Source: Bradyrhizobium sp. PSBB068
Lineage (GTDB): Bacteria; Pseudomonadota; Alphaproteobacteria; Rhizobiales; Xanthobacteraceae
DNA: 64,000 bases
Reading direction: 5' to 3'
Assembly (NCBI GenBank): GCA_016839165.1
Contig: CP069300.1
Coordinates: forward strand, 3,348,001 to 3,412,000
Shown here: positions 9,258-10,547 of the stretch, one piece after another
Layout: the number at the start of each line of letters is the position of its first letter
How positions within the stretch are numbered: the first letter of the stretch is position 1
Notes under the pieces: model-generated
What the model was told of the DNA's origin: nothing
Databases searched by the model: none
The model's input: only the letters and a program-made list of their open reading frames with translations
Program-made: the position numbers and the translations under genes

Positions 9258-10343
9258 TCAGGCCGAACGCTCTTGCAAGCCGTCACGCCGCACGCCGCGC
9301 CGTGCGTCGACGGCATCGGCCAGCTGCTTCAAGACGTCAGCCGTCGTCGCGAGGTCGATGCAGCCGTCGGTGATGCTCTGGCCGTAGGTCAGTGGCTTGC
9401 CCGGCACGACGTCCTGGCGTCCCGCGACAAGGTTGCTCTCGATCATCACGCCGATGATGCGCTGTTCGCCTGCCGCGACCTGCTTTGCGATGTCGGCGGC
9501 AACCAGCGGCTGGTTCTCCGGCTTCTTGCTGCTGTTGGCGTGGCTGGTGTCGATCATCAGCCGCGCCGCGACCCCGGCGCGGCCGAGCTCGGTTGCGGCG
9601 GCATCGACGCTCGCGGCATCATAGTTCGGCACCCGGCCGCCGCGCAGGATGACGTGGCAGTCCTCGTTGCCGCTGGTGGCGGCGATCGCCGAGCGGCCGC
9701 CCTTGGTGACCGCCATGAAGTGGTGCGGGTGCGACGCCGACTTCACCGCATCCGCCGCGATCCGCACGCCACCGTCGGTGCTGTTCTTGAAGCCGACCGG
9801 GCACGACAGGCCGGACGCCAGCTCGCGATGGATCTGGCTCTCGGTGGTGCGGGCGCCGATCGCGGCCCAGGAGACCAGATCGGCGATGTATTGCGGCGTT
9901 GTCATGTCGAGGAATTCGGTGCCGGCCGGCAGGCCGAGATTGTTCACCGCCGACAGCACGTTGCGGGCGAGCCGCAGGCCCTTGTTGATGTCGAAGCTGT
10001 TGTCGAGGTCGGGATCGTTGATCAGCCCCTTCCAGCCGACGGTGGTGCGCGGCTTCTCGAAATAGACCCGCATCACGATCTCGAGGCGGTCGGCGAGCTG
10101 TTCGCGCAGGCCGGCGAGGCGCTCGGCATAATCGACGGCCGCCGCGGGATCGTGGATGGAGCAGGGGCCGACGACGACCAGCAGGCGGTCATCGCTGCCG
10201 TTGAGGATCGCGTGGATGGCATTGCGGGCGCCCATCACGACGCGTGTCGCCGTCAGGGTGCGCGGGACCTCCCGCATCACCTCTTCAGGCGTACTCAGTT
10301 CTTTCAATTCCTTGATGCGAAGATCGTCTGTCGTACTCAACAC
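9258..10343 (-). CDS. aroG: 3-deoxy-7-phosphoheptulonate (DAHP) synthase, class I
   Basis: A 361-residue AroFGH-type enzyme condensing phosphoenolpyruvate and erythrose-4-phosphate, the first step of the shikimate pathway. Visible signatures are VVVGPCSIHDP, MRVYFEKPRTTVGWKGLI, GFKNSTDGG and IDTSHANSSKKPE, all core class I motifs. Start: GTG 10341-10343 is preferred because AAAGGAG lies six bases upstream and family proteins begin near here; an in-frame ATG at 10382 lies inside the terminator region. The gene follows an attenuator with an aromatic-rich leader peptide, so expression probably depends on charged tRNAs for Trp, Phe and Tyr. Confidence 0.93.
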   Translation of the reverse strand: MLSTTDDLRIKELKELSTPEEVMREVPRTLTATRVVMGARNAIHAILNGSDDRLLVVVGPCSIHDPAAAVDYAERLAGLREQLADRLEIVMRVYFEKPRTTVGWKGLINDPDLDNSFDINKGLRLARNVLSAVNNLGLPAGTEFLDMTTPQYIADLVSWAAIGARTTESQIHRELASGLSCPVGFKNSTDGGVRIAADAVKSASHPHHFMAVTKGGRSAIAATSGNEDCHVILRGGRVPNYDAASVDAAATELGRAGVAARLMIDTSHANSSKKPENQPLVAADIAKQVAAGEQRIIGVMIESNLVAGRQDVVPGKPLTYGQSITDGCIDLATTADVLKQLADAVDARRGVRRDGLQERSA

Positions 10344-10380
10344 GGCTGGCTCCTTTGGAGTTTTGGGACCTGCCGGCAAC

Positions 10381-10406
10381 AAAAAAGCCGCCAGGTCTGG
10401 CGGCTT
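10381..10406 (-). terminator. Attenuator terminator upstream of aroG
   Basis: Read on the minus strand, AAGCCGCCAG (10406-10397) and CTGGCGGCTT (10394-10385) form a stem closed by a very short loop and followed by six T. It lies 38-63 bases before the GTG start and can be pre-empted by pairing of its first arm with the leader segment at 10453-10461. Confidence 0.88.
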
Positions 10407-10430
10407 GTTTTGGACGTCTGCTGCAATTCT

Positions 10431-10511
10431 TCAGATTGAGCGCGATCCTCCTGCCGCCAGCGAGCTGTCGTAGCTAAAGTACCAAAAATAGCTGGTGGCG
10501 ACGGTGATCAT
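10431..10511 (-). CDS. Aromatic-rich leader peptide of the aroG attenuator, 26 residues
   Basis: ATG 10509-10511 opens a 26-codon reading frame whose codons 8-14 encode Tyr-Phe-Trp-Tyr-Phe-Ser-Tyr, six aromatic residues in seven, ending in TGA at 10433-10431. Codons 5-7 (GCCACCAGC) can pair with codons 17-19 plus one base (GCTGGCGGC, 10461-10453), eight of nine matches, and the latter can instead pair with the terminator's first arm. This is the 1:2, 2:3, 3:4 arrangement of ribosome-mediated attenuation. There is no Shine-Dalgarno and the predicted transcription start is at or one to two bases before the ATG, so it may be a leaderless ORF as described for rhizobial trpL. Confidence 0.85.
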   Translation of the reverse strand: MITVATSYFWYFSYDSSLAAGGSRSI

Positions 10512-10518
10512 GGGCGGC

Positions 10519-10547
10519 TCTATAGCGCAGGGATTTGGGGCTGTCAC
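10519..10547 (-). promoter_or_regulatory. Predicted promoter of the aroG leader transcript
   Basis: On the minus strand GTGACA (10547-10542) and TATAGA (10524-10519) are separated by exactly 17 bases, a good sigma-70-type match. The usual start distance places the first transcribed base at about 10511-10513, on the leader ATG. Confidence 0.6.

Follow-up and report, generated by a model that had tools for sequence, protein, structure and literature searches.

Within the window, a stretch of 64,000 nucleotides from Bradyrhizobium sp. PSBB068, the minus strand carries the gene aroG, preceded by a short ORF rich in aromatic codons and by segments that can pair with one another in alternative ways (table 1). 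The AroG protein is a type I 3-deoxy-7-phosphoheptulonate (DAHP) synthase (PF00793, 305.9 bits; TIGR00034 above its cut-off) and the sole type I match in this genome. On a tree that draws on the best 80 of 591 AroG loci, its nearest named relative is the protein of Bradyrhizobium betae, with 87% identity across 344 columns. A type II DAHP synthase (PF01474) was identified in 30 of the 31 genomes examined, including this one, where it lies at G000 C1:2699525-2700838.

Table 1. Features of the aroG leader region, in positions of the window
Feature	Positions	Strand	Remarks
-35-like hexamer GTGACA	10542..10547	-	sequence
-10-like hexamer TATAGA	10519..10524	-	17 nt past GTGACA, 7 nt ahead of the leader ATG
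Leader ORF, 26 codons, MITVATSYFWYFSYDSSLAAGGSRSI	10431..10511	-	ATG at 10511; predicted leaderless
Control codons 8-14	10470..10490	-	TAT TTT TGG TAC TTT AGC TAC = Y F W Y F S Y
Region 1, GCCACCAGC	10491..10499	-	8/9 complementary to region 2
Region 2, GCTGGCGGC	10453..10461	-	within the leader ORF; core GGCGG 10458-10454
Region 3, AAGCCGCCAG	10397..10406	-	5' arm of the terminator and partner of region 2
Region 4, TGGCGGCTT	10385..10393	-	3' arm of the terminator
Six-T run	10381..10386	-	first two bases close the terminator stem; sequence
Shine-Dalgarno-like AAAGGAG of aroG	10350..10356	-	sequence
aroG, type I DAHP synthase	9258..10343	-	GTG start at 10343; 361 aa

The leader ORF with its run of aromatic codons, the four pairing regions and the terminator with its six T all lie where the first-pass annotation had placed them, and the complementarity that it had reported between regions 1 and 2 was recovered as well. 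The core motifs form a ladder, in which region 2, inside the ORF, reads GGCGG, region 3 CCGCC, and region 4 again GGCGG. Region 2 lies about 21 nt ahead of the leader stop codon; the terminator (10406-10385) consists of a stem of nine pairs, six of them G-C, and a loop of four. Of 200 dinucleotide shuffles of the RNA from 10511 to 10376, 197 fold less stably than the native sequence (z = -2.48). We rejected the possibility of a chance ORF, because this is the only ORF of its kind in the window: among 1515 start-to-stop frames of 15-45 aa, every start codon being counted, only two starts gave at least five aromatic residues in eight codons, and both belong to the aroG leader ORF. The leader peptide had no match in NCBIfam, no family of Rfam 15 reached its gathering score for the region, and none did so at the element in 10 relatives. 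Weak Rfam matches to RNAI and BjrC1505, which scored 20 bits where 47 and 50 are needed, fell mainly on the terminator hairpin and were discarded.

Searches for AroG gave matches in 19 of 31 relatives. At wider ranks it was present in 15 of the 149 family genomes, in 60 of the 397 for the order (including a stray match at E 8.5e-4), in 14 of 385 for the class and in 107 of 200 for the phylum; a search of plasmids listed aroG homologues. A first set comprised the upstream regions of 121 loci, namely the order matches without the stray one, all those of the class and a part of those of the phylum (the loci listed there, plus seven that were chosen). An aromatic leader, defined here as an ORF that starts with ATG, spans 15-45 aa and has at least four aromatic residues in eight codons, was present in 102 of the 121, and in all 32 aroG upstreams fetched from the genus itself. 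No such leader was found in 17 of the 121, all from four other families of the phylum. Locus L057 is cut off by a contig edge and begins within the terminator; another contig of the same genome has a leader at its end (89.7 bits), which reads MNLAAATYYFDFFGYPMPLAEVGVWLI by eye. L060 has a weak leader, MNAARTLSARFYPRSIAGGIRGA, and a similar terminator.

A second set was made of the best 80 of 591 AroG loci, from named organisms; L239 was dropped, leaving 79 with enough upstream sequence, to which we applied a strict test that asked for both a leader and a called terminator. Among these best loci, 54 of 79 passed and 25 failed. Those that passed include Alphaproteobacteria (Bradyrhizobium, Devosia, Mesorhizobium, Rhizobium tropici, Methylosinus, Leisingera), Burkholderiales (Burkholderia, Paraburkholderia, Caballeronia, Cupriavidus, Oxalobacteraceae) and Xanthomonadales (Xanthomonas, Stenotrophomonas, Pseudoxanthomonas, Dyella, Rhodanobacter). 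Loci of Pantoea, Erwinia, Citrobacter, Enterovibrio, Photobacterium, Thauera, Azoarcus, Chitinimonas and others failed; the three named Enterobacterales loci fetched (Pantoea, Erwinia and Citrobacter) have no such leader, and in the failing L229, L237 and L243 the aromatic ORF is present and its terminator was not called by the test. In five Burkholderiales loci (L204, L209, L212, L213 and L222) the distance from the leader ATG to the aroG match is 242-286 nt, greater than in most.

Of the 200 aroG genes fetched, 153 have both leader and terminator ahead of them; the pair occurs in 0 of 1384 control windows. These controls were cut from the remainder of the same loci, using both strands, and are mostly coding sequence. 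Leader and terminator were seen in Alphaproteobacteria, Burkholderiales and Xanthomonadales, and hence in three classes of Proteobacteria. The first-pass annotation had staked its reading on conservation of the leader and hairpins in other Bradyrhizobium species, which the own-genus loci bear out and which extends to other families, orders and classes. A quickly built tree covered 100 AroG proteins, 29 from the first set of 121 and 71 from the best 80. Its 44 rows of Alphaproteobacteria and Xanthomonadales, all with a leader (L060 being counted as leader-bearing), stand on one side of a branch with an SH-aLRT of 99, and the other 56 rows divide into 25 with and 31 without a leader. The leader label requires 10 changes on this tree, compared with 26.6 in shuffles.

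The 102 leaders of the first set encode 82 unique peptides, which vary in length and codons. Phe and Tyr occur in 82 of the 82 and Trp in 73, under a selection rule that required aromatic residues without specifying which. The reading frame and the control codons are conserved in these leaders, which suggests that the ORF may be translated. Codon choice is skewed: in the unique leaders of 156 loci, Phe is encoded by TTT in 291 of 397 cases, compared with 49 of 690 in aroG, and Tyr by TAT in 191 of 351, compared with 256 of 665. The preference for TTT may reflect a role in stalling, or it may serve to keep this stretch unpaired. We also noted that many leaders share a C-terminal G-x-R-S-I/P pattern after region 2 (10451-10434 in the window, and in relatives). 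Its Arg, encoded by four synonymous codons, is found in 60 of 96 leaders, which hints at a constraint on the peptide or on termination.

The spacing between the control codons and region 2 is conserved. In 70 of the 102 leaders (68 by script and two, L042 and L043, after correction by eye), the core of region 2 starts 14 nt past the first base of the last aromatic codon; this distance is 11-17 nt in 97 of the 102 and 20 or 30 nt in four, and L068 has no core. We examined the consequences by folding the 63 non-redundant sequences of alignment A1 with a model ribosome whose footprint reaches 12 nt beyond the first base of the A-site, and across which helices are excluded. With the A-site at the last aromatic codon or at most six codons before it, pairing of regions 2 and 3 (2:3) was available in 95-100% of the 63 sequences, and at positions further upstream in 73-94%. 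Availability fell to 54% one codon past the last aromatic one, to 24% two codons past it and to 0 at the stop codon. Barring helices across the ribosome is an assumption, under which 2:3 must vanish as soon as the ribosome has moved beyond region 2. With the ribosome at the stop codon, 1:2 formed in 68% of the sequences. Varying the footprint edge from +10 to +15 moved the boundary codon by up to two codons. By geometry and folding, a stalled ribosome would leave region 2 free and an advancing one would cover it.

Folding without a ribosome gave a different preference. Once region 3 is present, 2:3 is favoured over 1:2 at this locus (6.87 versus 0.28 pairs in equilibrium folding), and across the 63 sequences 2:3 was obtained in 54% and 1:2 in 29%. 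Before region 3 exists, nucleotides 1-75 fold as 1:2, at -24.6 kcal/mol. Because 2:3 is preferred in the complete RNA, termination of a transcript that is never translated would have to rely on 1:2 forming first.

In A1, 95.2% of the cells are paired for the terminator 3:4, 82.9% for the antiterminator 2:3 and 67.7% for 1:2, which is the least conserved part of the element. Region 2 contains GGCGG in 145 of 156 leaders, and the terminator reads CCGCC-loop-GGCGG-T4 in 148 of 156, with representatives in all groups. At two core positions of 2:3 both partners have been replaced, giving A-U where G-C stood; one of these pairs is altered in three sequences from a single genus (f24g70), the other in two sequences from another genus (f1g57). 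At the same positions, and in the same numbers (three and two), 3:4 has a wobble U-G in place of C-G. Region 3 has thus changed and region 2 has followed while region 4 has not, a pattern expected if the antiterminator is under selection, and the covariation of 2:3 points to such selection. In one of the three f24g70 sequences, L112, the best computed partner for region 3 was a different stretch of the leader. Because region 3 is common to 2:3 and 3:4, formation of the antiterminator would exclude that of the terminator, and the covariation agrees with this. Synonymous recoding of the leaders was less telling: the median percentile was 0.17 for 2:3, with 6 of 63 sequences at or below 0.05, and 0.31 for 1:2, with 7 of 63. 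As these values are only mildly favourable, we put the weight on covariation and geometry.

Four loci of Rhizobium type (L073, L112, L113 and L219) have a divergent leader, for example MSFAHAYASRFYSYRCSQRRRACA; in L073, L112 and L113 a core 2:3 pair is compensated.

The promoter proposed by the first-pass annotation, GTGACA and TATAGA at a spacing of 17, stands as far as letters and spacing are concerned, but a scan with the sigma-70 consensus called no promoter there, TATAGA lacking the T at position 6. Support for it comes from 56 non-redundant upstream regions of Alphaproteobacteria, whose majority consensus (at least 50%) contains gtgacaA and cta. In 107 of 112 leaders from Alphaproteobacteria the best -10-like hexamer is found 5-9 nt ahead of the ATG, as it is in 8 of 8 named Xanthomonadales and in 6 of 7 other leaders of the phylum, but in only 5 of 28 in the beta/other group. 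A Shine-Dalgarno-like 4-mer precedes the leader in 3 of 156 cases, compared with 128 of 156 within 25 nt ahead of the aroG match. The position of the hexamer and the rarity of such 4-mers suggest that in this clade the ATG is probably the start of transcription, which in Burkholderiales probably begins at another place. The leaderless start that had been proposed is likely for Alphaproteobacteria and Xanthomonadales and is not supported for Burkholderiales.

Altogether, the element is very probably a ribosome-mediated transcription attenuator of aroG, as the first-pass annotation had suggested; the control codons, the 2:3 and 3:4 pairings and their geometry are conserved, and compensatory changes accompany them. 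From the ORF, its codons and the pairing regions, with the conservation, covariation and geometry described above, we infer the start point, the translation, the stalling and the response to amino acids as follows. Transcription would start at, or adjoining, the A of the leader ATG, and a ribosome would move along the leader ORF behind the polymerase. A shortage of charged tRNA for Phe, Tyr or, at this locus, Trp would make the ribosome stall in codons 8-14, covering region 1 and leaving region 2 just free, so that 2:3 could pair once region 3 is made; region 4 would then be left without a partner and aroG would be transcribed. When all three amino acids are plentiful, the ribosome would cross region 2 to the stop codon and 1:2 could pair behind it, whereupon regions 3 and 4 would pair as the terminator, releasing an RNA of about 131 nt. 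An attenuator of this kind makes sense for the gene, since the sole type I DAHP synthase stands at the entry to all three amino acids.

How many of these amino acids are sensed is a narrower question. The first-pass annotation had expected a response to any of the three; because Phe and Tyr codons are always present and Trp codons usually (82 and 73 of the 82 unique peptides, respectively), we only infer such a response. It is conceivable, if somewhat doubtful, that the leader senses mainly Phe, and perhaps Tyr, with the Trp codon as a passenger, as in aroR of Corynebacterium glutamicum. The nine unique peptides that lack Trp would fit such a restricted sensor, as would the bias toward TTT in leaders, which singles out Phe decoding, and attenuation through aroR is described as indifferent to the supply of Tyr (PMC11802643, accessible text). 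However, Trp is present in all 32 own-genus leaders and, by geometry, stalling at any of the codons can expose region 2. At the other extreme, we consider it unlikely that all leaders form a single ancient class of GGCGG/CCGCC/GGCGG attenuators spanning Alpha-, Beta- and Gammaproteobacteria, which would act as an OR gate for Phe, Tyr and Trp at the entry of the shikimate pathway and whose putative RNA of about 131 nt, together with its well conserved peptide, would also act in trans on other genes in the leaderless clades.

Two further readings were considered and rejected. In one, the leader is a separate small RNA or small-protein gene with its own terminator, and aroG is transcribed by readthrough or from a promoter of its own. 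The predicted 131-nt terminated transcript would be leaderless, like the trans-acting rnTrpL of Sinorhizobium meliloti, and the peptide is well conserved, being identical to that of the window in 8 of 32 own-genus leaders (the window's own counted) and in three of five named Bradyrhizobium. The element nevertheless keeps company with aroG. Model R1, run on 41 and on 240 genomes with stricter filters that lose weak matches, gave 31 loci of at least 85 bits, with aroG directly downstream in 30 and a contig end in one; away from aroG no match was listed above 39 bits, and no second strong match was listed in any of these genomes. G015, of the same genus, has neither a type I aroG nor the leader. 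As the control codons also correspond to the products of the pathway, and covariation links region 2 with region 3, a separate gene appears very unlikely. We give similarly little credence to purely translational control, in which translation of the leader would remodel the RNA around the aroG ribosome-binding site: aroG does have its own Shine-Dalgarno-like site a few nt ahead of its GTG, but conservation extends to the intrinsic terminator and its T-run, with 95.2% of cells paired and the motif present in 148 of 156, and in a fold of this locus through the aroG start the ribosome-binding site was unpaired with regions 1-4.

If aroG is attenuated as proposed, the kind of control is already known. 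Attenuators of the trp and phe operons, such as E. coli trpL and pheL (PMC11802643, accessible text), likewise combine a short ORF carrying codons of the end product, alternative hairpins, an intrinsic terminator and a downstream gene of the same pathway. They respond to one amino acid, whereas the aroG leader has mixed Phe, Tyr and Trp codons and the entry enzyme as its target. The aroG leader also has its region 2 inside the ORF, before the stop codon, in which it differs from E. coli trpL. In C. glutamicum, according to the accessible text of PMC11802643, aroF is attenuated through the AroR leader, with Phe-Tyr-Phe, in response to Phe and not to Tyr; the same system is treated in PMC4046766 (accessible text). 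The two cases would share attenuation of a DAHP synthase gene by a leader of aromatic codons; C. glutamicum belongs to another phylum and has Phe-Tyr-Phe where six aromatic codons stand here, the two being compared by description. The original paper on the aroR-aroF attenuator is reportedly that of Neshat, from 2014.

The trpL of S. meliloti combines a leaderless leader ORF, an attenuator and a released small RNA, and rnTrpL and the peptide peTrpL act in trans (PMC7298713, PMC10117765, accessible parts). The predicted leaderless ORF and the attenuator with a released RNA resemble this system, but trpL of S. meliloti and Bradyrhizobium has Trp codons only and trpE as its target, and the Bradyrhizobium peptide, MSTAVAPARLWWRTS, is unrelated in sequence to the aroG leader. 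The predicted uORFC-13-1 motif of Acholeplasma, ahead of aroF (PMC8632094, accessible text), is similar in that a DAHP synthase gene is preceded by a uORF, containing one or more Phe codons, and by a terminator; it is a prediction only, comprises 24 representatives from Acholeplasma and environmental sequences, and has a ribosome-binding site. The same text cites an earlier hypothesis of attenuation of E. coli aroF, and a 2005 survey of Actinobacteria reports, in its accessible part, no Phe or Tyr attenuators there. Neither aroG nor DAHP occurs in the main text of a survey of premature terminators, and aroG is absent from the main texts of the B. japonicum start-site paper (PMC4842269), a small-ORF paper and a Gluconobacter RNA-seq paper. 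We found no paper on an aroG attenuator in Alphaproteobacteria, Burkholderiales or Xanthomonadales, in a search with subscription journals mostly outside its reach.

The view that the aroG leader is a new and widespread example of a familiar kind of control is well supported. E. coli controls aroF and aroH by repression, through TyrR and TrpR (PMC11802643, accessible text), and in the many leader-bearing Proteobacteria the evidence points to an RNA switch at this same step, one that is missing from Rfam and from the papers found. If the model holds, one ribosome-based sensor could integrate three amino acids. The analysis also documents compensatory changes for an antiterminator, and it marks an unannotated 26-aa ORF and a predicted short RNA in nitrogen-fixing symbionts. 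The leader could offer a handle for engineering the production of aromatic compounds in these bacteria.

A model R1 match of 39 bits lies at G1090:C135:24952. Among the 33 loci L148-L180 that were scanned, 28 are weak matches to model R1 away from aroG, and five of these (L161, L165, L169, L175 and L176) have an ATG ORF with at least four aromatic residues in eight codons. Only L176 resembles the leader by eye: at the centre of this locus (G753, minus strand), a leader-like ORF, MIHAANYYYWFISSHTGGAQGFV, and a hairpin without a T-run precede an ORF of 87 aa, which had no Pfam match and resembles by eye the C-terminal S4 part of tyrosyl-tRNA synthetase. Finally, in the class member L058, a cobalamin riboswitch (2636-2842, 118.9 bits) lies just after aroG.
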